Shown: piece after piece, positions 1 through 30,112 of the stretch
Position numbering within the stretch: position 1 is the stretch's first letter
Layout of the letters: each line of letters begins with the position of its first letter
Assembly (NCBI GenBank): GCA_001438605.1
Contig: LIDE01000036.1
Coordinates: 1 to 36,833 of the forward strand
DNA: 36,833 nt
Reading direction: 5' to 3'
Origin: SAR92 bacterium BACL16 MAG-120619-bin48
GTDB lineage: Bacteria; Pseudomonadota; Gammaproteobacteria; Pseudomonadales; Porticoccaceae
The notes under the pieces: generated by a model
Database searches by the model: none
What the model saw: the letters and a program-made list of their open reading frames with translations, nothing else
What the model was told of the DNA's origin: nothing
Translations under genes and position numbers: made by a program

Positions 1-228
1 ATTCGCCACAGGGGAGAGCAGTTTGACCTGCGCAAGCGGGTATCGCGCCGCACCAGCCGCAAGCGACTGCGCGGCGGCACTTACCTCGGGGAGATGCCTG
101 ATCAGGAGGTCGCCCAACGGCATAGGGTAGTGGAGGGCCGGTAATGTTGCCAGAGCCTCGCTGACGTCAAGAACCTCGTCACCTTCTACCAGGCCAAGCT
201 TGTTGTTACCAAATCTACACAACTTCAT
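1..228 (-). CDS. Fumarylacetoacetate hydrolase (FAH) family protein, N-terminal part only
   Basis: The reverse strand reads open from an ATG at 228 to the window edge (76 codons). It starts MKLCRFGNNKLGLVEGDEV and continues with a PMPLGDLLIRHLPEV stretch and VKLLSPVAN at the edge. This is the usual small N-terminal domain of long-form FAH-family hydrolases/isomerases, which precedes the catalytic PGKI..GxNY segment that lies outside the window. Such enzymes cleave or isomerise acylpyruvate-like ring-fission products in aromatic catabolism. It has its own promoter and operator (285-313 and 272-293), so it is a separate transcription unit from the aminotransferase upstream of it. The family assignment is good; the exact substrate cannot be told from 76 residues. 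Confidence 0.8.
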   Translation of the reverse strand, partial: MKLCRFGNNKLGLVEGDEVLDVSEALATLPALHYPMPLGDLLIRHLPEVSAAAQSLAAGAARYPLAQVKLLSPVAN

Positions 229-271
229 TGCGTCTGCTTCCAGTTTTGAATCGGGGTTGGTTATTGACTAA

Positions 272-293
272 TTGTAGTACAATAATACTACAA
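272..293. promoter_or_regulatory. GntR-type operator A (double palindrome)
   Basis: TTGTAGTACAA (272-282) is a near-perfect TGTA-N-TACA palindrome and is immediately followed by a degenerate second copy ending TACTACAA. The whole forms a larger exact inverted repeat, TTGTAGTA-N6-TACTACAA. It overlaps the -10 box of the FAH promoter. The same 11-mer recurs in front of most transcription units in this window. Confidence 0.7.
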
Positions 294-313
294 TGGTTGA
301 ATAAAATTGTAAA
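285..313 (-). promoter_or_regulatory. Sigma70-type promoter of the FAH gene
   Basis: On the minus strand a TTTACA box (308-313) lies exactly 17 bases from a TAGTAT box (285-290). The second box sits inside the palindromic operator at 272-293, so a bound repressor would block RNA polymerase. The expected transcription start is about 50 bases before the FAH start codon. Assignment rests on motif match and spacing only. Confidence 0.55.
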
Positions 314-359
314 CTACCGGTGTTTTGTATTCTTATTGGAGGCGGGAATTGACGTGTTC

Positions 360-1718
360 CTAGAGTGCCTTCATCGCCTCATTTATTCTGTGCAGCGTGT
401 CTTGTATATCTGCTTCGGTGAATTCTCCGGAAACTGTGAATCGGCTGTTGCCGCCGATCAGCACTCCGTGTTTGTGGAGTAGCGAGCGGAATCGCATGCG
501 CTTTGTGGCGTCGGAGTCGACGAGCTCGTCCGGTGTATGAATGACGTTTCGCTTGGTGAAGTCCAGATAGAAAAACCCCCGGGGTCCTTGCACAAGAACG
601 TCGTAGCCGTGAGTCTTTGCGATCTCTCTTATTCCCTCCATCAAGCGGATCTGGTGATGGTCGACCCTTGAATAGTAGGCGCAGTCATCCCTCGAGAGCA
701 TTTCGAGGTTCTTGATTGCGGCGGCGATTGCGAGCGGAAAACTGTTAAAGGTACCCACCGCCAAAACCTTGTTCTCCGCGATCGCTGACATCAGGTCCCG
801 CCGTCCTGCCACGCAGGCCAGGGGTAAACCGCCCGCCAGCGCCTTGGCGAAAATGGCGAGATCGGGCGTAACACCAAAGAGCGCCTGCGCGCCGCCCAGG
901 CCGACGCGAAACCCCGTGATGACTTCGTCAAAGCAGAGCAACACGCCGAATTGATCACAGAGCTTTCTAACCGCCTGGAGGTAGCCGGCCTTTGGTGGAC
1001 AGCAGGCGCTGTTGCACATGATTGGCTCCATTATGACCAGCGCAATGTCGTCCCCGTGCTTGCGCAAAACGGCTTCTAATCCTTCAGCGTCATTCCATGG
1101 AATTAGCAGGGTTTCCTCCAAGCAGGACGAACTCAAACCCGCTGAATCGGAGTCGGCAGCAATGGGCGTTGGTAGTCTACTGGAACTGGAGTTTGCTTTG
1201 CCGGCAAGCATGGGATCCAGCCACCCGTGGTAATGTCCTTCGAAACGGAGCAAATAGCGCTTCCCGCTCACGCCGCGTGCCAGCCGCGCGGCAAGTTGAA
1301 CCGCCTCTGAGCCACTGATGCAGAATCGTACCTGCTCGGCGCAGGGCACCAGCTGAACAATCTTTTCGGCCAGCTCAATCTCCAAAGTCGTGTGGCCGAC
1401 AGCGGAGCCAAAGGACATCAGTCGGTCCAGCTGCTGGTGAATAGCCCAGAGGAATTCCTTGTTGCCATTGCCCCAGATAGCGGGCCCCATGCCGCAGACA
1501 AAGTCGATATAGTCTTTGCCATCCACGTCAAACAGGCGGAGACCCTCACTCCTGTCGAACACGATTGCCGGAGGCTGATCGTTCAGACGAAAGCTGGCAT
1601 AGTTGCTGTTGAGGCCGGGCATCACTGCTTGCGCTCGCCGCAGCCAGCGCGTGGATATGGGGTTCACTTTGTCGTTATATTTTTCCGCAATGGCGTGTTC
1701 GAACTCTTCGTTAGGCAT
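360..1718 (-). CDS. Class III (glutamate-1-semialdehyde-aminomutase-like) PLP aminotransferase 1
   Basis: This is a 452-residue fold-type I PLP enzyme. Visible landmarks are the substrate/PLP-phosphate loop SGSEAVQLAARLAR (about 135-148), GHYHGW (161-166), the cofactor-binding Asp of FDEVITGFR (D264) and the Schiff-base lysine in FAKALAGGLPL (K292). The closest well-known relatives are glutamate-1-semialdehyde aminomutase and the aromatic beta-amino-acid aminotransferases built on the same scaffold. It is paralogous to the enzyme at 6329-7687, which has the same length and the same landmarks. Its setting in a catabolic regulon, next to a GntR gene, argues against a role in haem synthesis. A likely operator lies at 1808-1820 and a four-copy 8-bp tandem repeat lies in its leader. 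The amino donor and acceptor are unknown. Confidence 0.85.
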   Translation of the reverse strand: MPNEEFEHAIAEKYNDKVNPISTRWLRRAQAVMPGLNSNYASFRLNDQPPAIVFDRSEGLRLFDVDGKDYIDFVCGMGPAIWGNGNKEFLWAIHQQLDRLMSFGSAVGHTTLEIELAEKIVQLVPCAEQVRFCISGSEAVQLAARLARGVSGKRYLLRFEGHYHGWLDPMLAGKANSSSSRLPTPIAADSDSAGLSSSCLEETLLIPWNDAEGLEAVLRKHGDDIALVIMEPIMCNSACCPPKAGYLQAVRKLCDQFGVLLCFDEVITGFRVGLGGAQALFGVTPDLAIFAKALAGGLPLACVAGRRDLMSAIAENKVLAVGTFNSFPLAIAAAIKNLEMLSRDDCAYYSRVDHHQIRLMEGIREIAKTHGYDVLVQGPRGFFYLDFTKRNVIHTPDELVDSDATKRMRFRSLLHKHGVLIGGNSRFTVSGEFTEADIQDTLHRINEAMKAL

Positions 1719-2684: not shown

Positions 2685-3863
2685 GTGACCGTCAGTGAGG
2701 CATTTAATGTGAACAGTACCCGCGTGCTCGCCGCTTTATTGCTGGTACACACGATTGGCCCCCAGTCGATCATCGTGCTGCCGGCCCTCACCCAGGGCTA
2801 TGTCGAGCAGCTCGGGATGAGTGAAGCGAACGCGGGGTTTCTCACGTCTGTTGAAGCCTGGGGCATCAGCATTGCCGCACTGTCCATGATGTATCTCATC
2901 AGACACTTTAGCTGGCGCCTGATGATGCGAGTCAGTTTGTACGTTATGGTGCTGGCCAACGGCTTGTGCCTGCTCAATCTGCCCGACGCCGTGTTCTACG
3001 CCTGTCGGTTTGCGGCGGGTTTTGCCGGCGGTATCATCGTTGCCGTGAGCTACGCGATGATTGGGCAGACAGAGCGAACGCAGCGCAATTTTGGCCTGGC
3101 GATCGCGCTGGTACTTGTTTACGGAGCGGTCGCTTTTCCTGCCATTGCCTACTTGTACAAAGCCTTTGGCATGAGCGGCGCGTTTGGATTTTTCGCCTGT
3201 TTTGCGGTAACTGGCTTGCCGTTTGTCGGAGCACTGCCCGATCGCGGCGGCAGTCGAACTCAAACCGATACTCCGCCGGAAGCTCCGGCTATCTCCGAAT
3301 CGCTCCTCGCAAGTGCCTGTATGTTGCTCTACTTCATCGGATTGATGGGCGTGTGGTCCTATTTTTACCGTTTTGGGGTCCGCTATGGTCTCAGCAGCGA
3401 ATCGGTAGGTTACGCGCTGTCCATTTCGCAGTTTGCCGGCGTTGCAGGCGCTTTTTTGGTGGTTTTGTTTGAGCGTGTCATGCGTCTTTCGATGGGTCTT
3501 CTGGTGGGAGTTCTCGGCTGCTCAATCGTGATTGCCGCATTGGTTTTTGACCAGAGCTATGCATCATTCCTTGTTCTCACGCTGCTGTTTCAGTTTGCCT
3601 GGAACATGACGCATCCCCTGCTGCTATCGGCCCTGGCCCGGCTTGATGAGACCGGTACTGTCATTGCGTACGGTACCGGGATGCAGTTTCTTGGAATGGC
3701 GTTGGGGCCGAGCATAGCCGCCTTGCTAGTGACGGAAGAGTCGCTGAGTGCCGTGGCATTTATGGGAGCATTTTGTACGGCGCTTTCTTTGGCTGCTGTA
3801 CTGCTTGCAATCCGGCTGCATGCGGGCCGGCGCAGCAATAATGTCCAACAATATAGTCATTGA
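2685..3863 (+). CDS. Major facilitator superfamily (MFS) transporter
   Basis: The 392-residue product is strongly hydrophobic with about 12 predicted membrane spans, separated near residue 190-205 by a hydrophilic loop (RGGSRTQTDTPPEAP) typical of the MFS central loop. It is an inner-membrane secondary carrier, and its place next to the regulator and just before a TonB receptor suggests import of the pathway substrate or export of a product. No signature identifies the substrate. The start is uncertain: GTG at 2685 has only a weak ribosome site, while an in-frame GTG at 2709 has a GAGG eight bases upstream; the shorter form would be 384 residues. Confidence 0.8.
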   Translation: MTVSEAFNVNSTRVLAALLLVHTIGPQSIIVLPALTQGYVEQLGMSEANAGFLTSVEAWGISIAALSMMYLIRHFSWRLMMRVSLYVMVLANGLCLLNLPDAVFYACRFAAGFAGGIIVAVSYAMIGQTERTQRNFGLAIALVLVYGAVAFPAIAYLYKAFGMSGAFGFFACFAVTGLPFVGALPDRGGSRTQTDTPPEAPAISESLLASACMLLYFIGLMGVWSYFYRFGVRYGLSSESVGYALSISQFAGVAGAFLVVLFERVMRLSMGLLVGVLGCSIVIAALVFDQSYASFLVLTLLFQFAWNMTHPLLLSALARLDETGTVIAYGTGMQFLGMALGPSIAALLVTEESLSAVAFMGAFCTALSLAAVLLAIRLHAGRRSNNVQQYSH

Positions 3864-3893: not shown

Positions 3894-3904
3894 ATGTAGT
3901 ACAA
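3894..3904. promoter_or_regulatory. GntR-type operator D with overlapping promoter
   Basis: ATGTAGTACAA contains the perfect TGTA-N-TACA palindrome (3895-3903). A possible promoter, TTGATT (3877-3882), 17-base spacer, TACAAA (3900-3905), overlaps it. It lies 36 bases before the TonB receptor start. Confidence 0.7.
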
Positions 3905-3939: not shown

Positions 3940-6258
3940 ATGCCTTTTTCCAAAAAATCCGCAATTACCTTGTTATCGGCTGCGTTGGGCATAACCTGCC
4001 CGCCACAGGTGTTCGCGCAGCTGGAGGAAGTGCTTGTCACGGCAGCAAAACGCGAAGAGTCTTTGCAGGATGTTGGTATTGCCGTGACAGCAATTTCGGC
4101 GCAAACCATCCGTGATGAGGGCATCGTAGCTGCGCGGGATCTCTTTAACCGCGTCCCCAACGTTCAGTTGCAAACCAATTCAGCTAACGGGCAGATGCAG
4201 CTCTCTATACGCGGCATCAGCTTTCCTACCTTTTCTCCCATAGGCGTGCAGCCGGTGGTGATGTTTCAGGATGAGATTGCGATTACCTCACCGCAGACAG
4301 CCGGCCTGTTTATCTTTGATATGGAGCGAATTGAAGTGCTCAGGGGGCCACAGAATACGCTCTATGGCCGCAACACCACGGGAGGCGCCGTCAACTTCAT
4401 TTCTGTTAGACCGGAGGTCGGCGGTGAACTCAACGGTTTTGCAGATGCAACACTGGGCAACTTTGGGACGGCAAACCTCAATGCGGCGATCGGCGGTCCA
4501 ATCGGTGAGAATACAGCCTACCGCTTGTCCTTTCAGTCTCTAAACAATGATGGCTACTGGGATAATATGCTTGCCGCCAGTGATCGACTGGGCGATCGCA
4601 ACCAGAATTTACTGCGCTTTCAGGTGGCTTGGGAGCCTTCAGATAGCTTCTCGGCGCTTTTTAACGTGCACGGAGGTCGCAGCGAGGGCAGTTCTCGCCC
4701 CGTCAAGGCGCATGGATTCGCTGCGCCGGGGACAGATGTGCCGTACTCCTGCACTGACATTGATCTCGACGATTTCACCACCACCTGTGAGGACGGGTTT
4801 GGTGGTGAAACGCTATCGGCAACCGACGAAGCTTTCGGCGGAATTGGCAACGACATAGACGACACGGATGCCTGGGGTGGCTCCGTTCGCCTCGATTGGA
4901 GCTTCGACGGCTTTGACCTGCTGTCGCTGACGGGTTTTGAGACGAACGAGTGGGACAAGTGGGAGGACAACAGCGGCCTCAGAGCGCCCATCCTGATTGG
5001 TTTCCGTCAGCAGGCTGACAGCGACCAAGTTACGCAGGAGTTTCGACTGACGTCTACTACCGACTCGGCCCTGCGCTGGATAGCTGGCGTGTATTATCAC
5101 TATGACGAAGTCGAATTTTACACATCGGTACCAATTACCGTCCTGCCGTTCGCGCCCGTTGCTTTTGGCAGCAACGGCCTGTTCAAGCAGGAGACAACAA
5201 TGTACTCCACTTTTGGCCAAATCGACTACGACATCAACGACAAGCTCACGCTGATCGCGGGCCTGCGTTGGGTAAGCGAAGAGAAAAAGGGCACGGCCCG
5301 TGCGCAGGAGGGATTCTGGGCAGACGCACTGGAGAGTGGGGAGCTAAGCTTTGAAAATCCGGATCAATGGTTGTCTGACAACCTGGAGCAGTACAACACG
5401 GGTCCCATAGCTATTGAACCGTTTTCTGAAACGTGGAATGACCAGTGGGGCGGCAAGCTCGGAATTCAATATACCAGCGATCGCGGAGACTTGCTGTACG
5501 CGCATGTGAGTCGCGGCGAGAAGGGCGGGCAGTTTGCCGATGCTCCTGACAGCGTGACTAGCGGCACCTTTGTTCCGCCGGCAGAGCCAGAGGAGGTTAT
5601 CGCCTACGAGGCCGGGTTCAAATCCGTATGGGCCAACGACACCTTGCAGCTGAATGCTGCTGTATTCTTCAACGACTATACCAATCAACAGGTGCAGATC
5701 ACCTTCAACGATGAAGAGGGGAACCTTTCTTCGCGTGTTGTCAATGCCGCCGAGTCGGAAGTCTACGGGCTGGAAGCCGAGCTGGTGTTTGTCCCCGGAA
5801 ACGGTTGGTCCGCGGATCTGGGCTTGGGCCTCCTCAGGACTGAGGTTGTGAAGGATAGCCTGGGGCAGGTGACGGGTGGCGTGCTGTCGATCGAAGAGGG
5901 GAGAAATCTGAATAATGCGCCAGAGACGACCATCAACTTCGGCTTGACCAAGGACTTCCAACTCGGCAACGGCAGTAGGGTATCAGCACGGGTAGATGGG
6001 CGTTACGCCTCGAAGCGAGAGTTCAACCTGATCGATACCGCGGCAACACGGGTATTCACGACGGATCCCTCGTATCTCGTATTTAACGCGCGACTCGACT
6101 ACCGATTTGGTGCTGACGAAGCGTATCGTGTTGCCTTGTGGGGCAAGAACCTCACTGACGAGCTTTACTTCAATCGCTTTGAGGATATCGGCACCTCTAA
6201 CCTGGGCTATCCCGGCGATCCCAGGACCTACGGGGTTACCGTCGGGATGGATTTCTAG
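3940..6258 (+). CDS. TonB-dependent outer-membrane receptor 1
   Basis: A 772-residue receptor. It has a signal peptide (about 1-27, ending VFAQ), a TonB box region LEEVLVTAAKREESLQDV, a plug domain with the conserved RIEVLRGPQNTLYGRNTTGG run, and a C-terminal beta-barrel ending in TVGMDF with a terminal Phe, as outer-membrane proteins do. These receptors bring in substrates too large or too dilute for porins, using energy from TonB-ExbBD (not in this window). I chose ATG 3940 because AGGGG sits seven bases upstream; an in-frame ATG at 3922 is also possible. Operator D precedes it and a class III aminotransferase follows after 70 bases, probably co-transcribed. Substrate class is inferred from context to be aromatic, not iron. 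Confidence 0.92.
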   Translation: MPFSKKSAITLLSAALGITCPPQVFAQLEEVLVTAAKREESLQDVGIAVTAISAQTIRDEGIVAARDLFNRVPNVQLQTNSANGQMQLSIRGISFPTFSPIGVQPVVMFQDEIAITSPQTAGLFIFDMERIEVLRGPQNTLYGRNTTGGAVNFISVRPEVGGELNGFADATLGNFGTANLNAAIGGPIGENTAYRLSFQSLNNDGYWDNMLAASDRLGDRNQNLLRFQVAWEPSDSFSALFNVHGGRSEGSSRPVKAHGFAAPGTDVPYSCTDIDLDDFTTTCEDGFGGETLSATDEAFGGIGNDIDDTDAWGGSVRLDWSFDGFDLLSLTGFETNEWDKWEDNSGLRAPILIGFRQQADSDQVTQEFRLTSTTDSALRWIAGVYYHYDEVEFYTSVPITVLPFAPVAFGSNGLFKQETTMYSTFGQIDYDINDKLTLIAGLRWVSEEKKGTARAQEGFWADALESGELSFENPDQWLSDNLEQYNTGPIAIEPFSETWNDQWGGKLGIQYTSDRGDLLYAHVSRGEKGGQFADAPDSVTSGTFVPPAEPEEVIAYEAGFKSVWANDTLQLNAAVFFNDYTNQQVQITFNDEEGNLSSRVVNAAESEVYGLEAELVFVPGNGWSADLGLGLLRTEVVKDSLGQVTGGVLSIEEGRNLNNAPETTINFGLTKDFQLGNGSRVSARVDGRYASKREFNLIDTAATRVFTTDPSYLVFNARLDYRFGADEAYRVALWGKNLTDELYFNRFEDIGTSNLGYPGDPRTYGVTVGMDF

Positions 6259-6328: not shown

Positions 6329-7687
6329 ATGAATCAAGATGCTGTACGAAACAGTCCCGTCGACGAGGCCGCTGTTGGTGGCAAAACCGCTGCCTTGATC
6401 GAGCGTGCAAAGCGCGTCATGTCCAGTCGCCAGAGCAATGTGCGCGCGTTACCTGAGCCTTCTATATTTGTTGAACGAGGCGAAGGGCAGCGGGTCTTTG
6501 ATGTTGACGGTCATGAATATCTTGATTTCGCGATTGCCATGGGTCCCGGGATTTGGGGCCATGGTCACCGCGAATACCTTGATGCCATTCATGCCCAGCT
6601 AGAGCAGTTGGTCTATGTCCAGTCCGGTGCCTGTCAAAGTGCCACTGAAGTGGAGCTGGCAGAGGCTGTTGTTGAGCACGTCCCGAGCGCCGAACGGGTG
6701 CGTTTTCATTTATCCGGTTCGGAAGCCGTGCAGATGACTTTCAGGCTAGCGCGGGCCTTTACTAACCGCCCACTGTTCGTGCGTTTTGGCGGTCATTATC
6801 ACGGTTGGATGGACAATGTGCTGGGCGGTGTGATGAATGAAGAGCCGGGCGCCATACCCTATGCGAAGCAAATGGAAGAGGATCCATTTTTTACTGCTGG
6901 CCGCGCTGCCGGCGCGCTTGAAGAGTCTTTGATGATTCCCTGGAATGATCTGGAAATCCTGCAGCAAACACTCGAGCGCTATGGAGATCGTATTGCGCTG
7001 GTGATTATGGAAGCGTTTTGCAGCAACGGTGGTTGCGCGCAGCCCAAACCAGGTTATCTCAAGGCAGTACGGGATCTCTGTGACCGTTATGGTGTGCTGC
7101 TGTGCTTCGACGAAATCATCACCGGTTTTCGGACCGCCATCGGGGGAGCCCAGTCTATTGTGGGAGTGACTCCGGACCTGAGTATTTTCGGTAAGGCAAT
7201 TGCCGGTGGCATGCCGTTGGCAGCGATTGCAGGCCGCGCAGATATTTTCGACCTGTTTCGCACCAACCGGGTGATAGGTGCGGGGACTTTCAACGCATTT
7301 CCGGTTTCAATGGCAGCTGGGTTGGCGACCATCCGTATGCTGGAGCGGGATAATGGTGCGGTTTACCGCTCGCGCGCAGCGGTGCAACAGCAACTGGAAG
7401 CTGGCCTGATGCAGGCCGCCCGCGAGACAGGCCATGACCTGCGGATTCTCAGCATACCCGGCAATTTTTGCACGCATTTCACATCCCGGGATGAGCTCTG
7501 GACCAGCAAGGAGATCGCCCAGGCCAGTGATATCGCTAAATCCACCCGCTTTCGCTCGCTGCTGCGTGAGGAGGGTGTAATCCAGGGGCTGGGCAACCGC
7601 TGGTTCGTCTCCTTTGCGCTGACTGAAGATGATGTTACTGAAACAGTGCGCCGCGCCTCAAAAGCGCTAAGCCGACTTCAAAGTTGA
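6329..7687 (+). CDS. Class III (glutamate-1-semialdehyde-aminomutase-like) PLP aminotransferase 2
   Basis: This 452-residue fold-type I PLP enzyme is a paralogue of the one at 360-1718. It shows LSGSEAVQMTFRLARA (about 128-143), GGHYHGWMDN, the cofactor Asp in FDEIITGFR (D261) and the PLP lysine in FGKAIAGGMPL (K289). The reading frame is open far upstream into the TonB receptor gene, but the ATG at 6329 begins a sequence alignable with aminotransferase 1, so I take that start. The family contains aminomutases and beta-amino-acid or amine transaminases. It follows TonB receptor 1 and is probably in the same transcript. Having two related copies in one regulon suggests two different amino substrates or steps. 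Confidence 0.85.
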   Translation: MNQDAVRNSPVDEAAVGGKTAALIERAKRVMSSRQSNVRALPEPSIFVERGEGQRVFDVDGHEYLDFAIAMGPGIWGHGHREYLDAIHAQLEQLVYVQSGACQSATEVELAEAVVEHVPSAERVRFHLSGSEAVQMTFRLARAFTNRPLFVRFGGHYHGWMDNVLGGVMNEEPGAIPYAKQMEEDPFFTAGRAAGALEESLMIPWNDLEILQQTLERYGDRIALVIMEAFCSNGGCAQPKPGYLKAVRDLCDRYGVLLCFDEIITGFRTAIGGAQSIVGVTPDLSIFGKAIAGGMPLAAIAGRADIFDLFRTNRVIGAGTFNAFPVSMAAGLATIRMLERDNGAVYRSRAAVQQQLEAGLMQAARETGHDLRILSIPGNFCTHFTSRDELWTSKEIAQASDIAKSTRFRSLLREEGVIQGLGNRWFVSFALTEDDVTETVRRASKALSRLQS

Positions 7688-11286: not shown

Positions 11287-11459
11287 TTCATTTTCCTTAA
11301 AGGCGTCGATCGCTCCATCCTGTGAGTAAAGCTCGCAGGTCGGGTGTCGTCATTCAGCAATCTAATTTTCGCACAGGGCGGCAGGGCTCCGCCATAGTGG
11401 TCTACACAAAATTAAAAAAACCCCGAATAAATTAGAGATTGCGATTAATATGATATATA

Positions 11460-11470
11460 TTGTACTACAA
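11460..11470. promoter_or_regulatory. GntR-type operator E, before the 2-oxoacid dehydrogenase operon
   Basis: TTGTACTACAA is the exact reverse complement of the operator A core. It lies 20 bases before the E2 start at 11491 in an AT-rich promoter region (about 11405-11460). The ribosome site GGAGG (11475-11479) follows at once, so transcription must begin within or just beside the operator. Confidence 0.7.
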
Positions 11471-22412: not shown

Positions 22413-24110
22413 ATGCAAAGTCGATTAATCGGTTTTATCTGTCGCGCGGTTGCCTTAAGCGCAATTGTCCTGAGCGGCCACTCGCTTGCAGTCGATACAG
22501 TTTCAGAACTGAAATTCGTCCCTAACCCATCTGGCCGGGTCCCTCTTGCTGCGGCGATTGAGTTCTCGGGTCCTCCCGGATTACGGCTCAAGCTCACCAT
22601 CTCAAGTGGCGACGAGCATTACACCTTCAGCGGTGGCCCTGAGTGGATGCTGGACGCGGAGCACTATCGCGTGCCCGTGTTGGGTATGCGACCTGCACGT
22701 GAGCATGCCATTCAACTCGATGTGTTCCGCGGTGATCAACTATTGGCCGAGCGTAGCTTCTCCCACAAGACGCCTTCTCTGCCAGACAACCCTCTGGCGT
22801 TTCCGCCCTTTCAGGTCAAGGTTCTGGAAGCAGACCGCCTGGAGCCTGGGGTTACCTTCCTGAGTGTGCGCCGGCGAGCGCTCGGTCGCTCCCAATGGCT
22901 CACACCGGCACAGCACCGCTTCTCAACGCAATGGGGCATGCTTGTGGCTTTCGACCAGCATGCAGAGGTCGTCTGGTGGTATGAGTCTGACAGCCGAACA
23001 GCCGGGATAGAGCGACTGCACAACGGCAACATCCTTATGCATCGTACGGATTTTTCCGCGGTCGAGATAGACATGCTGGGCTTCGTGAAAAACCAGTACT
23101 ACGCAGAGCAGCGGCCCTCCCCAAAGCCGGAAAACCCTGACGCTGTCCCGATCCATGGCATCCAAACGCTGCACCATCAGCCGCATCAAATGCCTAACGG
23201 CGACTTTTTGAGCTTTTCCGCCAACGCCTATCCCATCGAGAACTACATCAGTTCCGAGAATGATCCTCTCGCGCCGCGGAAGGATGCGATGGTGATGGCC
23301 GACACGGTGATGCAGTTTACGCCCGAGGGAGAGGTCGTATGGCGCTGGAATACCATGGATTATCTGGACCCATTTCGTATTGGCTATGACACGTTCTGGG
23401 CGTACTGGTGGGTGAGGGGGTTTGACCAGCACGTCGACTGGACGCACGCCAACGGCGTGTCCTATGACGCCAGCGACGACAGCGTGCTGATCTCCCTGCG
23501 CAACCAGAGTGCTGTGCTGAAGATTGACCGAAGCACCGGAGATATAAAGTGGATCCTGGGCCGTCACGACAACTGGCCGCCTTCCCTGGAGAGCAAGCTA
23601 CTGACGCCGGCAGGCCCGGGCCCTTTCATGTGGCAGGCTTATCAGCACAATCCGCGTGTGACATCCAAGGGCACCGTCATACTGTTTGATAACCGTGCTC
23701 ACGGCGGTGCAATGCCCTTTGAGGAGCGCCCCCCAGCGTACAAGGGATTCAGCCGTGGCGTGGAGTATCTGGTTGATGAGAGTGCCATGACTGTTCGCCA
23801 GGTCTGGGCTTCGTCCGATGGCAGCGAGGATTACGCCTGCTTTACCAACGCGATGAGCGATGCCTCGCGCTTGCCAAAAACAGATAACCGACTGGTGATT
23901 CATGCGTTCTGCCTCCCGCGCGACGAGGGCATGACCGAAGACGAGATGGACGAGACACGACGCGCACCGGGTGACTTCCCGTACGGCGGCAGAATCCTGG
24001 AGTTCAGCGACGGGGAGGTTGTGCTATGGATCGACGTCGTTGACCCGAATGATCTCATTCAGTGGGAAGTGTACGGGGGGTTTCGCAACTCAGGACTGTA
24101 CGCCCAGTAG
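22413..24110 (+). CDS. PAPS-independent arylsulfate sulfotransferase (ASST family), exported
   Basis: 565 residues with a signal peptide (about 1-27) and a strong AGGAGG site six bases upstream. An N-terminal beta domain is followed by a propeller with the family's active-site blocks: LHHQPHQMPNGDFL (histidines 254, 255, 258), DWTHANGVSYDASDDSVLIS (H345), SLRNQ (R363) and QHNPRV.SKGT..LFDN (H412). In known ASSTs a histidine takes sulfate from an aryl sulfate and passes it to another phenol, in the periplasm and without PAPS. The spacing H345-R363 matches what I recall of the E. coli enzyme. It closes the operon that also encodes a sulfatase. Recognition is by motifs and overall layout. Confidence 0.88.
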   Translation: MQSRLIGFICRAVALSAIVLSGHSLAVDTVSELKFVPNPSGRVPLAAAIEFSGPPGLRLKLTISSGDEHYTFSGGPEWMLDAEHYRVPVLGMRPAREHAIQLDVFRGDQLLAERSFSHKTPSLPDNPLAFPPFQVKVLEADRLEPGVTFLSVRRRALGRSQWLTPAQHRFSTQWGMLVAFDQHAEVVWWYESDSRTAGIERLHNGNILMHRTDFSAVEIDMLGFVKNQYYAEQRPSPKPENPDAVPIHGIQTLHHQPHQMPNGDFLSFSANAYPIENYISSENDPLAPRKDAMVMADTVMQFTPEGEVVWRWNTMDYLDPFRIGYDTFWAYWWVRGFDQHVDWTHANGVSYDASDDSVLISLRNQSAVLKIDRSTGDIKWILGRHDNWPPSLESKLLTPAGPGPFMWQAYQHNPRVTSKGTVILFDNRAHGGAMPFEERPPAYKGFSRGVEYLVDESAMTVRQVWASSDGSEDYACFTNAMSDASRLPKTDNRLVIHAFCLPRDEGMTEDEMDETRRAPGDFPYGGRILEFSDGEVVLWIDVVDPNDLIQWEVYGGFRNSGLYAQ

Positions 24111-24111: not shown

Positions 24112-24485
24112 CTGGACCTCTTAGCCAGGGCTGGTATTACGGTCAGGTGCTGTTGCAGGGTGGACAGCCTGTCCGCGGCCTGTCCAGATGGCTGTTTTGT
24201 CACACCAACACTGGTCGCCATAGAAGACACCGATAGCCCTCTGGTACAGGAGGAAATATTTGGTCCGATTAATTGTCTCGAGCGTTTTTACGATGAGACC
24301 GATGTCGTGCGCCGCACTAATGCCACGCGCTACCGTTTGGCTCAACTCGCACGCGCGCCTCATCGCCGAGGCAGAGACCGGTGGCTATGGTGAGAGTAGA
24401 TTGGGCCGGCTGCACGGCATAGAGGCCTTGAATGATTTTCTGGAGACAAAGCATTGTTACCTGGAAGCGGGGCTGGCATCGTGAG
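24112..24485 (+). pseudogene. Remnant copy of the 3' end of aldehyde dehydrogenase 1
   Basis: From CTGGACCTC at 24112 to GGCTGGCATCGTGAG near 24485 the DNA is an almost exact copy (about 94% by eye) of 17550-17999. It has a one-base deletion early on and an internal deletion of about 75 bases corresponding to roughly 17774-17848, so it cannot encode a product. It starts two bases after the arylsulfotransferase stop and ends at the original gene's end, including the overlap with the next start codon. It has no start region. Confidence 0.9.
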
Positions 24486-24498
24486 CTGGTTTAAGCGG

Positions 24499-25060
24499 CT
24501 ATAATGCAACGATCACTGATTTGGGCTGGAGAAATTCCTCTACGCCTAGCCGTGATCCCTCCCTGCCCCAGCCGGATTGCTTGTATCCTCCGAACGGTAA
24601 GCCCTCATCGAATGCAAATGGGCAGTTTACCCAGACCATGCCTGCCTGTATTTCTGCGGACAACCGGTGGGCACGGCTGAGGTCCCGTGTCCAAAGGCTG
24701 GCAGTCAAGCCATAGTCGGTGTCATTTGCCAGCGCCGCAATGTGCAAAATGTCGCTGGAGTTCTCAAAGGGTGTTGCAGTGATTACCGGGCCAAACACCT
24801 CGTCCCTGACGACAGGTAGAGTCTGGTCGGGGCACACCATCACTGTCGGTTCGATATAGTATCCGTGTTCACCCAGCAACCGCCCCCCCGTGAGAATCTT
24901 CGCGTTGCCGCTGCGTGCTGACTCGATGTAGCTGCTGACGCGCCCTCTGTGCTTTTGCGATACCAGCGGACCCAGTTCGCTCTCGGGATCCCACCCAGGC
25001 CCCACAGTCATCCCGGCAGCGATGCTAGCGACCCTTTCAATAACATCATCGAAAGGGGAT
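24499..25060 (-). pseudogene. Truncated aldehyde dehydrogenase, C-terminal third (paralogue of aldehyde dehydrogenase 2)
   Basis: The reverse strand encodes about 185 residues that align with the last third of aldehyde dehydrogenase 2: DDVIERVASIAAGMTVGPGW, DEVFGPVITATPF, DTDYGLTASLWT and YKQSGWGREGSRLGVEEF. The cofactor domain and catalytic Cys and Glu are missing. Homology starts abruptly at about 25055, where it is joined to the 3' end of the second GntR gene. The natural stop is kept (24499). A methionine at 25011 could start a 170-residue peptide but it would not be a working enzyme. Confidence 0.88.
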
Positions 25061-25702
25061 TACATTAATAAGTCCTCGATATTCCATCCTCAAACTTTCA
25101 ATGTGCACGCGCATTCTGAGAGCGGCATAGGTTGGGTCTCCGGTCTCCAGTGCCTTGATAATCTCTCTGTGATCGCGTGCGGCGGTTTCGTTCTCTGTGT
25201 GTTGTCCGGCCTTGAGGTAGCATAGCAATGGGTAGTTGAGAATCGGTTTCAGCCAGGATTGTAGGGCCCGACTTCCCGACAGGGAGTGGATCCCATCATG
25301 GAATCTGGCGTTAAGCGCCAAAAAGTTCTGCTCATCGCCAGCTGGTACTGCCTCAAGTTGGTCCTGGATGCGCTTAATATTGTCCAACTGTGAGGGAGTT
25401 ATGCGTGATGCGACCAGACCCACGCTGTAGCTTTCCAGGTTGGCCAAAATGTCATAGATGATTTCGATGTTTTCCTCGCTGACGTCTTTGACATAGGAGC
25501 GACGGTTCTCCTTGATGTCCACCAGTCCCTCGGCAGCCAGTTGTCTAATAGCTTGGCGTACTGGTGTTCGGCTGATGTTCAGAATTTCAGAAAACACTTC
25601 CTCCCGGAGGTGATAACCTGGCAGATAGGTACGCTGGATAATGCCTTCGAATATTGCGTTGTAAGCGGTCTTTATCGCGGTCGAATTGTCTTTCTTTTTC
25701 AT
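25046..25702 (-). CDS. GntR-family transcriptional regulator, FadR/FCD subfamily (copy 2, altered C-terminus)
   Basis: 218 residues from ATG 25702. The winged helix-turn-helix has LREEVFSEILNISRTPVRQA and GLVDIKENRRSYV, almost the same as copy 1 at 1905-2537. The FCD domain retains NARFHDGIHSLSGS, AARDHREII and RMRVHIESL. After RMEYRG the sequence LINVIPFR comes from read-through into the truncated aldehyde dehydrogenase (its DNA overlaps 25046-25060), so the original last residues were lost, though the domain itself looks complete. It may compete with, or replace, copy 1 on the shared operator. An upstream start to 25855 is open but unsupported. I see no regulon operator directly upstream. 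Confidence 0.87.
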   Translation of the reverse strand: MKKKDNSTAIKTAYNAIFEGIIQRTYLPGYHLREEVFSEILNISRTPVRQAIRQLAAEGLVDIKENRRSYVKDVSEENIEIIYDILANLESYSVGLVASRITPSQLDNIKRIQDQLEAVPAGDEQNFLALNARFHDGIHSLSGSRALQSWLKPILNYPLLCYLKAGQHTENETAARDHREIIKALETGDPTYAALRMRVHIESLRMEYRGLINVIPFR

Positions 25703-25849: not shown

Positions 25850-26427
25850 GACCACTTTAGCGTTGATGGCACGTTAATCGCGGCCTGGGCGACTCACAAA
25901 AGTGTTCGCCGCAAGGGTGGGTCGGACGACGATAATCCTGACGGTGTCGGCGCGCAACGCGGGTTGCAACTTTCACGGCGAGAAGCATAGCAATAAGACC
26001 CATGCCTCGCGTACTGATCCCGAGGCTCTGCTTGCGTCCACGGGCGGGGGTACGAGAGCGCGCCCCAGCGATCGACATGCCGACGGTACTGAAAAGTGGG
26101 GCGACACTGGGAGCTGACCCAGGGTATGACACTCGGGAGTTTGTCGATCTATTGAGATACCTGGATGTTACACCGCACGTTGCGCGAAACCTGAAACGTC
26201 CCGGCGGGTCTCCGATTGACGACAAAATAACCCGTCATGCGGACTAAGAAATCAGTCAACGGGTACGCAAACGGGTGGAGGAGCGCTTCGGCTGGGCGAA
26301 GCAAATTGGCAGGCTCAGACAGACAAAGTTCAGAAGTCTGACTCGGGTAAGGCAGGACTTCCTGCGGGTGATGGCTGCCTACAACCTGGTGCGTATCAGA
26401 AATCTGCTGCCCGAGGTCGCGTGGTGA
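25850..26427 (+). pseudogene. IS5-family transposase remnant
   Basis: Pieces of an IS5-type DDE transposase can be read in order in two frames: DHFSVDGTLIAAWATHKS, then after a frameshift NFHGEKHSNKTHASRTDPEA, then GADPGYDTREFVDLL, VTPHVARN and VRKRVEERFGWAKQIGRLR. A stop (TAA where TAC is expected) follows ITRHAD at about 26245. The N-terminus and both element ends are not recognisable. It is dead, and marks an old insertion next to the GntR copy 2 promoter. Confidence 0.85.
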
Positions 26428-26680: not shown

Positions 26681-26691
26681 ATGTAGTGCAA
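26681..26691. promoter_or_regulatory. GntR-type operator F (upstream of the -35 box)
   Basis: ATGTAGTGCAA differs from the regulon consensus by one base (G for A). It lies just upstream of the -35 box at 26697, and its centre is 53 bases from that of operator G. Confidence 0.6.
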
Positions 26692-26696
26692 AAAAA

Positions 26697-26725
26697 TTTA
26701 AAAAATGGTTTATTAGCGATATAAT
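26697..26725 (+). promoter_or_regulatory. Sigma70-type promoter of the fumarylpyruvate hydrolase operon
   Basis: TTTAAA (26697-26702), a 17-base spacer and a perfect TATAAT (26720-26725). The predicted start of transcription (about 26732) is right before operator G. Together with GGAGG (26750-26754) this gives a leader of only about 28 bases. Confidence 0.65.
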
Positions 26726-26733
26726 TCTTATTA

Positions 26734-26744
26734 TTGTAGTACAC
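26734..26744. promoter_or_regulatory. GntR-type operator G (at the transcription start)
   Basis: TTGTAGTACAC contains the perfect TGTA-N-TACA palindrome (26735-26743) and sits at the predicted transcription start, 16 bases before the start codon at 26760. Binding here would block initiation. Confidence 0.7.
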
Positions 26745-26759: not shown

Positions 26760-27449
26760 ATGCTGCTATTTGATGCCCCGCCCGTCACGGTCGTGCCGAT
26801 TGCGAACTCCGACAAGGAATTCCCCGTTCACCGCATTTACTGCGTTGGCCGCAATTACGCGGAACACGCGCGGGAGATGGGCAAAGATCCTGATCGTGAT
26901 CCGCCGTTCTTCTTCTGCAAGCCTGCGGACGCCATCGTGCTGGACGGAGAGCCCGTTCCCTATCCGCCGCGGACGGAGAATCTGCATCACGAAATTGAGC
27001 TTGTGGTCGCGATAGGCAGGGAGGGCCACGATATCGCATCTGAGAACGCCGAGAGCTATATCTACGCGTATGCCGTTGGCAATGATATTACCCGTCGCGA
27101 TCTGCAACTCGACTCACGCGCCACTGGGCGGCCCTGGGACACGGGCAAGGCTTTTGATCGTTCAGCCGCGATCAGCTGCCTCTATCCGGTTGATCAGGTA
27201 GGGCACATACGTACGGGTGAGATCGAACTGTCGGTAGACGGTGAACCCCGCCAGAAAGCAGATATCAGCCACCTGATCTGGAGCGTGCCAGAGATCATCG
27301 CCGAGCTTTCGACGCTATTTACCCTCAAGCCCGGCGATCTGATTTATACGGGTACTCCGGCAGGGGTCGGAAAGGTCGAGCCGGGACAGACAATGTCAGG
27401 CTCGATAGCGGGTTTGGGCACACTAACGAACACCGTGACGATGCGCTGA
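26760..27449 (+). CDS. Fumarylpyruvate hydrolase (FAH family)
   Basis: 229 residues. YCVGRNYAEHAREMGKDPDR (27-46), PFFFCKPADAI, the metal-binding ENLHHEIELVVAIG (E78, E80) and AVGNDITRRDLQ with GRPWDTGKAFD are characteristic of the short fumarylpyruvate hydrolases of the gentisate pathway (NagK type). The enzyme cleaves fumarylpyruvate to fumarate and pyruvate. ATG 26760 has GGAGG six bases upstream and fits the family start; the frame is open further up, through the operators, which is not coding. It is followed by maleylpyruvate isomerase after four bases, which supports the assignment. Confidence 0.93.
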   Translation: MLLFDAPPVTVVPIANSDKEFPVHRIYCVGRNYAEHAREMGKDPDRDPPFFFCKPADAIVLDGEPVPYPPRTENLHHEIELVVAIGREGHDIASENAESYIYAYAVGNDITRRDLQLDSRATGRPWDTGKAFDRSAAISCLYPVDQVGHIRTGEIELSVDGEPRQKADISHLIWSVPEIIAELSTLFTLKPGDLIYTGTPAGVGKVEPGQTMSGSIAGLGTLTNTVTMR

Positions 27450-27453
27450 GCAC

Positions 27454-28095
27454 ATGAATCTATACTCGTTTTTTCGAAGCTCTGCCGCTTATCGGGTCCG
27501 TATCGCGCTTAATCTGAAAGGACTGGAATACGATCAGATTCCCGTGCATTTCCGAAAAGACGGCGGCCAGCATCGATCGCCGATGTTTCTGAATCTGAAT
27601 CCCCAGGGTCTATTGCCCGTTATCGACGACAACGGGTTCGTGCTTCAGCAGTCGCTCGCTATTATCGAATACCTTGACGAACAGTACCCGGAAACCTCCA
27701 GGCTCGTGCCCCGGGCGACTCGCGACCGAGCTGTGGTGCGTGCGATGTCACAGATGGTAGCCTGCGACCTCCATCCGCTGAATAACCTGCGGGTACTGAA
27801 TTACTTGCGGCAGGACATGGGCCAGAGCGAGGAGTCGATCGGTGCATGGTATCGACACTGGGTTCGCGAGACGTTGGGCCCGCTCGAGGAATTGGTCGGG
27901 CAACATGGTGGCGCCTGCTGCTTCGGCGACGAGATATCACTCGTCGATGTTTGTATCGTTCCGCAGCTGTATAACGCACGGCGCTTCGACTGCGATGTGG
28001 ATTCGTTTCCACATGTCATTGCGATAGATAAACATCTGCGGGAGCTGCCACCCTTTGCTGCGGCAGCGCCGGAGGCGCAGCCCGATTTTGAATGA
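27454..28095 (+). CDS. Maleylpyruvate / maleylacetoacetate isomerase (zeta-class GST)
   Basis: 213 residues. The N-terminal thioredoxin-fold domain starts MNLYSFFRSSAAYRVRIALN, with the active-site SSxAYRVRIAL motif of zeta-class glutathione transferases, followed by NPQGLLPVIDD and the glutathione-site QSLAIIEYLDE. The helical C-terminal domain has CDLHPLNNLRVL. It isomerises maleylpyruvate to fumarylpyruvate using glutathione as cofactor. It forms a two-gene operon with the hydrolase that uses its product, so maleylpyruvate is the more likely substrate than maleylacetoacetate. Confidence 0.92.
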   Translation: MNLYSFFRSSAAYRVRIALNLKGLEYDQIPVHFRKDGGQHRSPMFLNLNPQGLLPVIDDNGFVLQQSLAIIEYLDEQYPETSRLVPRATRDRAVVRAMSQMVACDLHPLNNLRVLNYLRQDMGQSEESIGAWYRHWVRETLGPLEELVGQHGGACCFGDEISLVDVCIVPQLYNARRFDCDVDSFPHVIAIDKHLRELPPFAAAAPEAQPDFE

Positions 28096-28148: not shown

Positions 28149-28622
28149 CTACCGCGGCTCCAGCGGCGGCATTTTTCCGCCTGGCACAAGGAGTTCAATA
28201 ATATTGCCAAAGGGATCCTCACAGTATCTCGCTGCGCCACCACCCGCCACGTGAATACTTTCGCCGACACTGCGACCACCGGCCTGACACACGCGCTCGA
28301 AGGTTCGCTCGAGGTCCTTCACCTGAAACGCGATATGCCTGATGCCTTGCATATCGGCGCGTGCCTGCACCTGCGAACTGGCCGCGCCTGTTGAGTACTC
28401 GAAAATCTCTATATAGCTGTTTGCGAAGCGCATCAGGCAAAATTTCGCCGAGGACTGGTGCAGCCCTGTCAGTGCGTCAAATTTTCCCTCGCCGACTTCC
28501 CAGGCCGCCCGCTTGATAACCGCTCCATCGAAAGCCGCACTATAGAATTCTATAGCCTGGTCGATGTCGCTAACAACGAGAGCGACGTGATGAATACCCT
28601 CACAGTTATCTGCGCTTACCAT
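28149..28622 (-). CDS. VOC (glyoxalase/dioxygenase fold) family protein
   Basis: 157 residues with two beta-alpha-beta-beta-beta repeats. The likely metal ligands are H in GIHHVALVVSD, E in SYIEIFEY, H in GIRHIAFQVKD and E in FGNIIELL. VOC proteins include glyoxalase I, ring-cleaving dioxygenases and isomerases/epimerases. The gene starts three bases after the end of gentisate dioxygenase, so it belongs to the same operon. It may act on a ring-fission product or handle a side reaction. Its function is not recognisable beyond the fold. Confidence 0.82.
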   Translation of the reverse strand: MVSADNCEGIHHVALVVSDIDQAIEFYSAAFDGAVIKRAAWEVGEGKFDALTGLHQSSAKFCLMRFANSYIEIFEYSTGAASSQVQARADMQGIRHIAFQVKDLERTFERVCQAGGRSVGESIHVAGGGAARYCEDPFGNIIELLVPGGKMPPLEPR

Positions 28623-28625
28623 GGC

Positions 28626-29669
28626 TTACCACTCCCGCTCCATGTAAATCCGCAGCTTTTTGTGCAGCGGCGCGTCATCAACGATAAACAGAAATGCAGG
28701 CTTCTTGCTGGAGCCGTTTGTGATGGTGACGCGAGAATGCGCCGGCAAGGCGGACACGTCAGCATCTGCCCAGCTAAAGGTGGTGTCATTCGCCGTTGTA
28801 GTGCCTGTGCCCTCAACAACGTGCAATACCTGCGAGCAGGAGCGACGGGGCAGACGCAACGTTTCTCCGGGCCGCAGCATCAGTGCTGAGAAGCCCAGGA
28901 AAGGCAAGCATGCTTCGCCTGACAGGGGATTGATGTAGGCCAGATGAATCGGTTTGTCGCGGCCCGTCTGTCCCGCGAGGGCCAGGAGAGCGTTCCTGGT
29001 GTCCTTCCAGGGATATCGGCGCATTGGATAGGGCGCGCTGGAATCGAGTTCGTCGTAGGGAACGAGGCCAGCCCTGGTAAAACGGGTTTCTGAGGCGTCC
29101 GGCGCAGTTTTCGCCTGCTGTAGCGGGGCAGCATCAGCGAACGAATGTTCAAGCAGATAGATAAGTGGAAGATCGAGAGCGTCCAACCAGACTACTGGAC
29201 CGTCACCTTCATGGCCGTGTTCGTGCCACAGGCCGGGTGGTGTCAATATCAGGTCGCCGTGCTCCATCGGCAATTTCTCGCCCTCCACGGTGGTATAGCC
29301 GCCGCTGCCTTCTACTACGAGTCGAATCGCACTGGGTGTGTGGCGATGATTGGGTGCATCCTCGCCCGGGAGAATAAGTTGCATACCCACATAGATCGAC
29401 GGCGTCGCCTGGAGCTTTTCCAGTCCCAATCCAGGATTGCACAGGACAAGAACTCGCCGTTCGGCCTTTTCTATGGGTGTGAGCTCGCCCGCTTGCATCA
29501 ATAGGGGACGTACATCGTTGTAGCGCCAATGCGTTGCAACCGATGCTCCGGTGGGCTCTCCCTCCGGAAGAAACGCCCGCAGGCTCGGCCAGAGGGGGTT
29601 GAGGTTGAGTTGGTTTAGCGTCGCCAGATACGCAGGGGGCAATTCGGCTGCCGTTTGCAATTGGGTCAT
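28626..29669 (-). CDS. Gentisate 1,2-dioxygenase (bicupin)
   Basis: 347 residues with two cupin domains. In the first, iron ligands lie in APNHRHTPSAIR (H108, H110) and the downstream WHEHGH (H149, H151), with GGYTTVEGE and GDLILTPPGLW around them as in known gentisate dioxygenases. The LDALDLPL run is also typical. The second cupin (about 240-340: PLSGEACLPFLGFSALMLRPGE) lacks the metal histidines. It opens the ring of gentisate between C1 and C2 to give maleylpyruvate. A remnant paralogue is at 36054-36340. Operator H lies 35 bases upstream. Confidence 0.94.
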   Translation of the reverse strand: MTQLQTAAELPPAYLATLNQLNLNPLWPSLRAFLPEGEPTGASVATHWRYNDVRPLLMQAGELTPIEKAERRVLVLCNPGLGLEKLQATPSIYVGMQLILPGEDAPNHRHTPSAIRLVVEGSGGYTTVEGEKLPMEHGDLILTPPGLWHEHGHEGDGPVVWLDALDLPLIYLLEHSFADAAPLQQAKTAPDASETRFTRAGLVPYDELDSSAPYPMRRYPWKDTRNALLALAGQTGRDKPIHLAYINPLSGEACLPFLGFSALMLRPGETLRLPRRSCSQVLHVVEGTGTTTANDTTFSWADADVSALPAHSRVTITNGSSKKPAFLFIVDDAPLHKKLRIYMEREW

Positions 29670-29703
29670 GAGCTTACCTTAGATTACGGAAGATTCTGTA
29701 TTA

Positions 29704-29714
29704 ATGTAGCACAT
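29704..29714. promoter_or_regulatory. GntR-type operator H, before gentisate dioxygenase
   Basis: ATGTAGCACAT keeps the TGTA-half and the ACA end of the palindrome with one core change (C for T). It lies 35 bases upstream of the dioxygenase start on the minus strand. It is weaker than the perfect copies. Confidence 0.5.
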
Positions 29715-30112
29715 AAATTTCGCGGCGCCCCCTAAGATTCGTAAGTTGAAAGGTTTTTTTTTGAGCCTAACGAGATGATTGCTTCCTGAAGAAATCAGCT
29801 AAGTTCCGCTTTTTTAACTGACATAACCGCCAAATAATCACTAGAGGCAGGCCTCTCTGAGGCGATTTTTTCACCTTTTACCGATTTTTCTTGCGCACGG
29901 AAATTTATTAATGTACAACAATACATGTCGAAGGGGAGTTTTGCGGGCTCGAAAGCCGCGTTCCCAAGGGCGTGTTGGTCCCAAAGGGTTGAGGTGATGA
30001 GCCCTAGAGTCGCCTTTTTGCGGCTTTGAGGAAGGGGGCACTGATGCGATATAGATCGCAACCAGTGCGCAGCGGATCGATGTAAACAATATGAATGGTC
30101 GGAGACAGGGTT
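29715..30112. other. Divergent intergenic region between gentisate dioxygenase and TonB receptor 2
   Basis: About 400 bases without a convincing gene. It contains operator I (29911-29921) and then an untranslated leader of about 190 bases before the receptor. The leader has small imperfect hairpins (for example GGCT/AGCC near 29948 and AGTCGC/GCGGCT near 30008), but I recognise no riboswitch class. A T9 run lies near 29753. Confidence 0.6.
29911..29921. promoter_or_regulatory. GntR-type operator I, before TonB receptor 2
   Basis: ATGTACAACAA; on the other strand TTGTTGTACAT. One core mismatch to TGTA-N-TACA. It lies in an AT-rich patch about 190 bases before the receptor start, which is a likely promoter position given the long leader. 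Confidence 0.45.

Follow-up and report, generated by a model that had tools for sequence, protein, structure and literature searches.

The gentisate clusters of the mhb type (mhbRTDHI together with mhbM) contain genes that we take to encode a dioxygenase, an isomerase, a hydrolase and a carrier. In Burkholderia xenovorans LB400 they include a 3-hydroxybenzoate 6-hydroxylase-type flavoprotein next to gentisate cleavage (excerpts of PMC3572157), and the same elements were found in a gene cluster of the stretch analysed here, the 36,833-nucleotide contig LIDE01000036.1 (the window) of SAR92 bacterium BACL16 MAG-120619-bin48. Beyond the content of the mhb clusters, this locus encodes a GntR/FCD regulator, TonB receptors, an arylsulfatase (SULF), an arylsulfotransferase (ASST), transaminases, an acetoin-type dehydrogenase complex, an alcohol dehydrogenase (ADH) and two aldehyde dehydrogenases (ALDH1 and ALDH2). 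It also differs from them in that its flavoprotein (FMO) and its gentisate dioxygenase (GDO) score under the NCBIfam equivalog cut-offs. We put at about an even chance that the cluster, a set of about twenty genes, is a horizontally shared catabolic regulon, controlled by the GntR/FCD regulators, for a sulfated 3-hydroxyphenyl compound whose side chain bears an amine. There is good support for this reading at the level of the cluster; the substrate is one that we infer.

The initial annotation had proposed a route for a sulfated and/or aminated aromatic compound ending in gentisate, and every activity that it named is encoded in the window. Most of the gene set, when sought in other genomes, was recovered in rearranged form and with the operator in Hyphomonadaceae bacterium UKL13-1, Aquidulcibacter sp. 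LE19-59.1B (genome G919) and Sphingomonadaceae bacterium PASS1, and in pieces in an uncultured Sphingomonadales metagenome-assembled genome (G1025) and in G1184, a genome of the same order as G919. The features of the cluster are listed below with position, strand and basis; percentages are identities, and all operators, which carry no strand, come from pattern searches.

360–1718, minus: AT3a, class III transaminase, glutamate-1-semialdehyde (GSA) aminomutase-like (profiles; 49% to the G1184 cluster transaminase)
1809–1819: operator before AT3a
1905–2537, minus: GntR1, GntR/FCD regulator (Pfam GntR and FCD)
2645–2655: operator between GntR1 and the MFS gene
2685–3863, plus: MFS carrier (Pfam MFS_1; 34% homologue in the UKL13-1 cluster)
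3894–3904: operator before TBDT1
3940–6258, plus: TBDT1, TonB-dependent receptor (48% to the receptor adjoining AT3b in UKL13-1)
6329–7687, plus: AT3b, class III transaminase (70–72% in four alphaproteobacterial records)
9114–10304, plus: FMO, group A flavin ring hydroxylase, 3-hydroxybenzoate 6-hydroxylase-like (PRK08163; 51–54% in relatives' clusters)
10321–11286, minus: AT4, fold-type IV transaminase, (R)-amine transaminase-like (solved relatives; 35% homologue by ALDH1 and TBDT1 in G1184)
11460–11470: operator between AT4 and the E2 operon
11473–13086, plus: E2, with lipoyl, E3-binding and acyltransferase domains (domain profiles)
13091–14500, plus: E3, dihydrolipoyl dehydrogenase (TIGR01350, 538.6 bits, above the cut-off of 408.8)
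14538–15497, plus: E1 alpha, acetoin-dehydrogenase type (tree; 72% to G1184)
15501–16517, plus: E1 beta, acetoin-dehydrogenase type (tree; 81% over 217 residues to G1184)
16514–17998, plus: ALDH1, aldehyde dehydrogenase (profiles; 47–54% in relatives' clusters)
17995–19737, plus: SULF, S1 arylsulfatase with a signal peptide (by eye) and a CxPxR core (407 bits to Pseudomonas arylsulfatase 1hdh)
19734–20849, plus: ADH, zinc alcohol dehydrogenase (profiles; 46–47% in relatives' clusters)
20875–22395, plus: ALDH2, aldehyde dehydrogenase (best model phenylacetaldehyde dehydrogenase StyD, 552.7 bits, cut-off 850)
22413–24110, plus: ASST, arylsulfotransferase with a signal peptide (by eye; Pfam PF05935)
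25046–25702, minus: GntR2, second GntR/FCD regulator (71% DNA identity to GntR1 over 212 nt)
26681–26744: two variant operators before FPH (2 and 1 mismatches)
26760–27449, plus: FPH, FAA-hydrolase family, candidate fumarylpyruvate hydrolase (profiles; 60% in relatives)
27454–28095, plus: MPI, zeta-class glutathione S-transferase, maleylpyruvate/maleylacetoacetate isomerase (TIGR01262, 263.5 bits, above the cut-off of 171)
28626–29669, minus: GDO, gentisate 1,2-dioxygenase family (TIGR02272, 268.8 bits, cut-off 442)
29704–29714: operator before GDO

Most transcription units of the window are preceded by a GntR/FCD-type operator of the approximate form WTGTNNNACAW, a palindrome that presumably corresponds to the type expected for FCD regulators. 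It was located before AT3a, TBDT1, FPH (two variants), GDO and the second receptor gene TBDT2, and between GntR1 and MFS and between AT4 and the E2 operon; pattern searches of the window showed none before GntR2, FMO (which lies behind an insertion element) or SPMS, a gene further downstream. The common operator that had been postulated from the letters alone is real: TTGTAGTACAA, with up to two mismatches, gave 17 matches against 3.74 expected, a count in which palindromic sites score on both strands and two places are intragenic, and none of 100 shuffles reached 17. The pattern [AT]TGTNNNACA[AT] occurs nine times in the window (0.24 per kb, two of them intragenic), compared with 13 times in 326 kb (0.04 per kb) from 18 other stretches of the same genome. 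The 2.53-Mb genome contains two exact copies of ATGTAGTACAA, both on this contig, and 18 copies when up to one mismatch is allowed, 5 of them here; over the whole genome the motif shows no enrichment, because the reversed control pattern yields 21. In the relatives, [AT]TGTNNNACA[AT] was counted nine times in 25 kb of the UKL13-1 cluster (three intragenic), nine times in 22 kb of Aquidulcibacter (two intragenic) and eight times in 24.8 kb of PASS1 (three intragenic), with 16 occurrences in 320 kb of UKL13-1 control sequence. It was also present five times on a 9.2-kb contig of G1025 and twice on the first of three G1184 contigs, one of these inside the transaminase gene. The operator travels with the gene set across lineages, and its regulator would act in the repressor sense.

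The related loci of UKL13-1, Aquidulcibacter, PASS1 and G1025 were the four obtained when 84,980 species genomes were scanned once for a pair of short peptide patterns, a procedure that catches close relatives only. A 22-kb contig of Aquidulcibacter carries nearly the entire set, and the UKL13-1 locus lies on a complete chromosome. In UKL13-1 and PASS1, a first run with the order ALDH1-ADH-SULF-FMO-FPH-MPI-GDO is followed by ASST, a small lipoyl protein, a TonB receptor and MFS on the other strand, and then by ALDH2-GntR-E1a-E1b and a receptor-AT3b pair. The small lipoyl protein has 79 residues, the PASS1 frame starting 20 residues earlier; as a stand-alone lipoyl-domain protein (11148–11387 of the fetched Aquidulcibacter stretch, and also in UKL13-1 and PASS1) it takes the place of the full E2. 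A single 20-kb stretch of UKL13-1 was matched by 17 of 25 window queries at E 1e-20, which stand for 14 gene families because paralogues count twice, and AT3b lies nearby; the neighbourhood is therefore conserved in a distant relative. When 16 evenly spaced 20-kb control stretches of UKL13-1 were searched, 14 had no match and the remaining two were hit by three queries and one query. In G1025, one contig carries receptor-AT3b-MFS and another receptor-SDR-SDR-E1b-E1a-GntR-ALDH2-MFS (SDR assigned by eye).

Pieces nearer to the window were found on three contigs of G1184. The first holds SULF (57%), GDO (37%), a transaminase (49% to AT3a), MPI (49%), an alanine racemase and ASST (60%); the second holds E2-E1a-E1b at 52, 72 and 81% together with a VOC gene; the third holds TBDT1 (48%), AT4 (35%), ALDH1 (54%) and part of SPMS. 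These contigs would adjoin in the cell. When AT3b was searched against 398 genomes of the phylum, it matched, besides the own genome, G919 (72%) and G851 (49%), neither of which belongs to the class of the window. The G851 locus was not counted as a cluster, as no gentisate genes were seen in the 60 kb scanned; its class III transaminase is 47–49% identical to AT3a and AT3b, with ADH and ALDH genes about 11 kb away. About 28 kb from that transaminase, a TonB receptor is directly followed by an SPMS homologue (38%). ASST matches in G081, G1429 and G1492 (30–34%) were rejected, since they showed no convincing common neighbourhood.

The gene set was not found in the sampled relatives of the same genus, where AT4, ASST and AT3a had no ortholog. 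AT4 matched somewhere in 92 of 94 genomes of near relatives (own included), the best same-genus matches being only 39% (G018) and 37% (G017) identical, and the 40 kb around these two shared no neighbourhood with the window beyond weak TonB-receptor matches. ASST was detected in 2 of 293 genomes of the order, the own genome and one at 34%, and AT3a exceeded 40% identity in the own genome only, among the matches listed for 114 genomes. No relative was found in one scan of viral contigs; ASST had no plasmid match, and the 53 plasmid records matching AT4 were all below 60% identity.

The lower gentisate pathway that had been annotated is borne out by the three genes concerned. TIGR02272 is the best model for GDO, under its equivalog cut-off, and the HxH...H metal ligands of the first cupin are kept in comparison with 2d40. 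The GDO homologue of G1184 reaches 414.5 bits, also under 442, and the GDOs of three clusters are only 32–37% alike, yet the gentisate model is the best for each. MPI adjoins FPH in the window and in the relatives, and its maiA model (TIGR01262) does not split maleylpyruvate from maleylacetoacetate isomerases. The best match of FMO is the model of 3-hydroxybenzoate 6-hydroxylase, far under the curated cut-off; an HxxxY motif stands at 213/217 in the FMOs of the window and of UKL13-1 (by position, without structural alignment), the places of the His213/Tyr217 pair of 3-hydroxybenzoate 6-hydroxylase (excerpts of PMC5472690).

The two sulfate-handling enzymes have N-termini that by eye resemble signal peptides. 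SULF aligned over nearly its full length with the Pseudomonas arylsulfatase 1hdh and carries CTPTR (CxPxR) at the aligned position, which we take to be the formylglycine site; unlike that enzyme, SULF would be regulated together with aromatic catabolism. ASST aligned with the PAPS (3'-phosphoadenosine 5'-phosphosulfate)-independent arylsulfotransferase EcAST (3elq) at about 60 bits over 135 residues, a stretch that leaves His252 and Thr501 outside, and within it the equivalents of His436, His356, Asn358 and Arg374 are kept (counted by hand on the alignment). In EcAST these four residues carry or bind the sulfuryl group (excerpts of PMC13426309). In contrast to EcAST, ASST clusters with an arylsulfatase and ring-degradation genes.

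The initial annotation had also named a full 2-oxoacid dehydrogenase. An E1-E2-E3 set is indeed present, and by its placement in trees it is of the acetoin dehydrogenase type, not a generic 2-oxoacid dehydrogenase. The E1 alpha and E1 beta trees had 17 and 20 rows, numbers that make them a limited test. In both, the E1 of the window grouped with the E1s of plasmid acetoin operons and with those of a second such complex of its own genome, apart from the long pyruvate-dehydrogenase-like E1 beta rows and from the branched-chain E1s; support was 99/97 for the six-row E1 beta group and 94/97, below the starred level, for E1 alpha. The second complex lies on contig C15 (6962–11886 of the fetched stretch) beside Rieske-type and thiolase-like genes, with mutase- and carboxylase-like genes across a divergent gap (by eye, from N-termini). 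Among the plasmid homologues closest to E1 alpha, three (56–59%) sit in acetoin-type operons, those of Rhodococcus, Klebsiella and Acinetobacter plasmids, which resemble the window in having E2 and E3 and E1 alpha/beta subunits 56–61% identical to its own. Acetoin reductase and 2,3-butanediol dehydrogenase are annotated in two of the three, the Klebsiella operon being without them. The window differs from these operons in having no visible acetoin reductase or butanediol dehydrogenase, in lying within an aromatic regulon and in the order E2-E3-E1a-E1b. Acetoin use as the purpose of the cluster was rejected, as no acetoin reductase was seen in the window, and so was a housekeeping pyruvate dehydrogenase, as the E1 groups elsewhere in the tree.

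Acetoin dehydrogenases cleave a C–C bond of a hydroxyketone to give an aldehyde and an acyl-CoA. The presence of such a complex in an aromatic regulon with aldehyde dehydrogenases suggests that it would split an aryl acyloin to an aryl aldehyde, and because the complex is acetoin-type, C–C cleavage of the side chain may replace 2-oxoacid oxidation. In the route proposed, whose order of steps we infer, the TonB receptors and the MFS carrier would import the sulfated substrate, a periplasmic arylsulfatase would strip the sulfate, and the arylsulfotransferase would shift sulfuryl groups between phenols. AT3b, joined by AT4 in the window and G1184, would convert Ar-CH(OH)-CH(NH2)-R to the acyloin Ar-CH(OH)-CO-R, from which the acetoin-dehydrogenase-type E1-lipoyl system would release ArCHO and R-CO-CoA. 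ADH and the ALDHs would carry alcohol and aldehyde intermediates to 3-hydroxybenzoate, FMO would hydroxylate this to gentisate, and GDO, MPI and FPH would convert gentisate to pyruvate and fumarate. Starting from a beta-hydroxy amine, such a sequence would employ the transaminases, the acetoin-type complex and the ALDHs without a gap. A pathway in which (R)-amine and class III transaminases convert a sulfated phenolic beta-amino alcohol to an aryl acyloin, which the complex then cuts, would be undescribed, and this specific proposal is tentative, with rather more doubt than confidence attached to it.

The nitrogen part of the route depends on the transaminases. AT4 is placed by its sequence among the (R)-selective amine transaminases of fold-type IV: its best solved relatives are such enzymes (9k35, 8zm7, 6xwb), with full-length alignment and 210–231 bits for the 11 best chains, and the PLP (pyridoxal phosphate) lysine KN-WGD region and the EGxGFN region are kept. 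It differs from the solved enzymes in sitting in a catabolic regulon, and its activity and stereopreference are predicted. AT3a and AT3b are 47% alike, and no protein is more similar between the window and the clusters of UKL13-1, Aquidulcibacter and PASS1 than AT3b. An assignment of these class III enzymes as D-phenylglycine transaminases was rejected, as none occurred among the solved structures listed at E <1e-60. Pyruvate is a product of the gentisate cleavage pathway and could be the amino acceptor. In G1184, which also carries AT4, the alanine racemase between MPI and ASST fits a transaminase forming D-alanine from pyruvate.

Several observations weigh against the reading of the cluster as a regulon for a sulfated 3-hydroxyphenyl amine. 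FMO scores 292 bits with PRK08163 against a cut-off of 459, and its closest solved relatives include decarboxylating 1-hydroxylases of the para-hydroxybenzoate type. In the Martelella enzyme, Gln305, eight residues after the GD motif, is linked to substrate binding, and FMO has a proline at that place. Because of these three points the meta position of the phenol is likely but not secure. GSA aminomutase, the nearest relative of both class III transaminases, does not point to a substrate. AT4, AT3a, the E2 catalytic core and E3 are absent from the three larger alphaproteobacterial clusters, whose E1s branch as a clade of their own in the trees; AT4 finds only 28–32% relatives in the UKL13-1, PASS1, G1025 and Aquidulcibacter genomes. 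ASST was not detected in G1025, a partial case, and two of the three G1184 pieces lack the operator pattern. Expression of FMO may be disturbed or altered, because an IS4-type element abuts its start, and mis-binning is possible because the composition of the window is foreign to its genome. Of what had been claimed, an operator-marked gene set that would degrade an aryl sulfate through gentisate is supported, whereas 3-hydroxybenzoate as the ring substrate and an amine as the starting compound are not established. For the amine this is because the case comes from three transaminases, together with AT4 and the racemase of G1184; AT3b alone among the three is shared with the larger alphaproteobacterial clusters of UKL13-1, Aquidulcibacter and PASS1. 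The initial annotation thus proved right in outline, its interpretation being partly supported and its dehydrogenase re-read.

The substrates could instead be sulfated phenols of the 3-hydroxybenzyl alcohol type without nitrogen, for which SULF, ADH, ALDH1, FMO, GDO, MPI and FPH would suffice, the transaminases and the acetoin-type complex serving unrelated or by-product compounds. In the alphaproteobacteria, ALDH1-ADH-SULF-FMO-FPH-MPI-GDO form one self-sufficient run on the same strand, as this requires. However, AT3b is the most alike of all the proteins (70–72%), and E1 is kept with the operator nearby in the three larger clusters, where bystanders would be unlikely to stay; we regard this explanation as unlikely. 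Of similar, low probability is a phenethylamine route without acyloin cleavage, in which a transaminase would give an arylacetaldehyde or aryl-glycolaldehyde, ALDH2 would form the acid, and a mandelate-type oxidation would precede decarboxylation of an arylglyoxylate by a thiamine pyrophosphate (TPP)-dependent E1. ALDH2 resembles phenylacetaldehyde dehydrogenase in both lineages, the Aquidulcibacter homologue being likewise StyD-like (545 bits), and class III transaminases often act on terminal amines. Against such a route, the E1 of the window falls with those of acetoin operons and not with 2-oxoacid E1s, and no mandelate dehydrogenase is evident beyond ADH. Several independent catabolic modules under one common regulator, with no single substrate, are very improbable: duplicated regulators, ALDH fragments and IS elements in the window are signs of piecemeal assembly, and gene order and operon structure vary between lineages, but distant bacteria keep a near-identical gene list in another order, and the larger of their clusters carry the operator.

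Returning to the preferred reading, a horizontally shared regulon, the window (36.8 kb) is the entire contig of a 2.53-Mb genome in 111 contigs, of which it makes up 1.5%; since it is the whole contig, the gene cluster is cut at the left edge. Its GC content is 0.56, compared with 0.473–0.537 across 18 stretches of its own genome, and the tetranucleotide correlation of its two halves with that genome is 0.48 and 0.45 (own-stretch mean 0.65, individual means 0.53–0.71). The contig may be a horizontally acquired island or else mis-binned, and in either case the cluster itself is real, because the gene set recurs in other genomes. Scanning the window for Rfam families and tRNAs gave no matches. 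The remaining features of the window are:

1–228, minus: FAA-hydrolase-family gene, 5' part, truncated by the contig end, putative (Pfam Rv2993c-like_N, 20.9 bits, cut-off 21.3)
272–282: operator TTGTAGTACAA, upstream of the cut FAA-hydrolase gene
7788–9100, plus: IS4-type insertion element, ends approximate (transposase frame, terminal repeats)
24165–25011, no strand: fragments of a second ALDH1 (plus) and a second ALDH2 (minus) (DNA repeats)
28149–28622, minus: VOC-superfamily protein (Pfam Glyoxalase; a 30% VOC gene is also beside E2 in G1184)
29911–29921: operator before TBDT2
30113–32458, plus: TBDT2, TonB-dependent receptor (profile match)
32847–36017, plus: SPMS, MFS/spermine-synthase fusion of about 1056 residues, possibly in the set (profile match)

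The IS4-type element lies between AT3b and FMO, with its right end about 10–14 bp before the FMO start codon; its terminal repeats agree at only 16 of 25 places, and the transposase frame (7924–9117) overruns the right repeat. By eye, the region at about 26230–26400 resembles the C-terminal part of an IS5-type transposase. The second-copy ALDH1 and ALDH2 fragments, on opposite strands beside GntR2, are DNA repeats of 90–94% and perhaps the remains of a duplicated cluster. The gene set possibly runs past 30112 with TBDT2 and SPMS. SPMS is 48% identical over 141 residues to the G1184 AT4-ALDH1 fragment, and its homologues adjoin a TonB receptor (G851) or AT4-ALDH1 (G1184).

No described gentisate cluster with this combination, as the initial annotation had stated, was found in the literature searched, among the matches listed. 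The titles and abstract starts listed from PMC, a search outside which most subscription journals lie, contained no description of the cluster, and the main text of the UKL13-1 genome paper makes no mention of gentisate, sulfatase, aromatic, TonB, aminotransferase or degradation; the operator-marked gene set is apparently undescribed. The literature was drawn on as passages of PMC13426309, PMC5472690 and PMC6043778. UKL13-1 has its origin in a co-culture with a lake cyanobacterium (excerpts of its genome paper), and a sulfated phenolic of phytoplankton as the substrate is only a suggestion.

The locus brings an arylsulfotransferase and an amine transaminase into one operator-marked set, in which ASST recurs across classes and AT4 in a second genome. 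To our knowledge, (R)-amine transaminases are much used in industry and their natural role is unsettled. If the specific proposal of aryl-acyloin cleavage is true, it would provide a physiological role for both (R)-amine transaminases and catabolic arylsulfotransferases.

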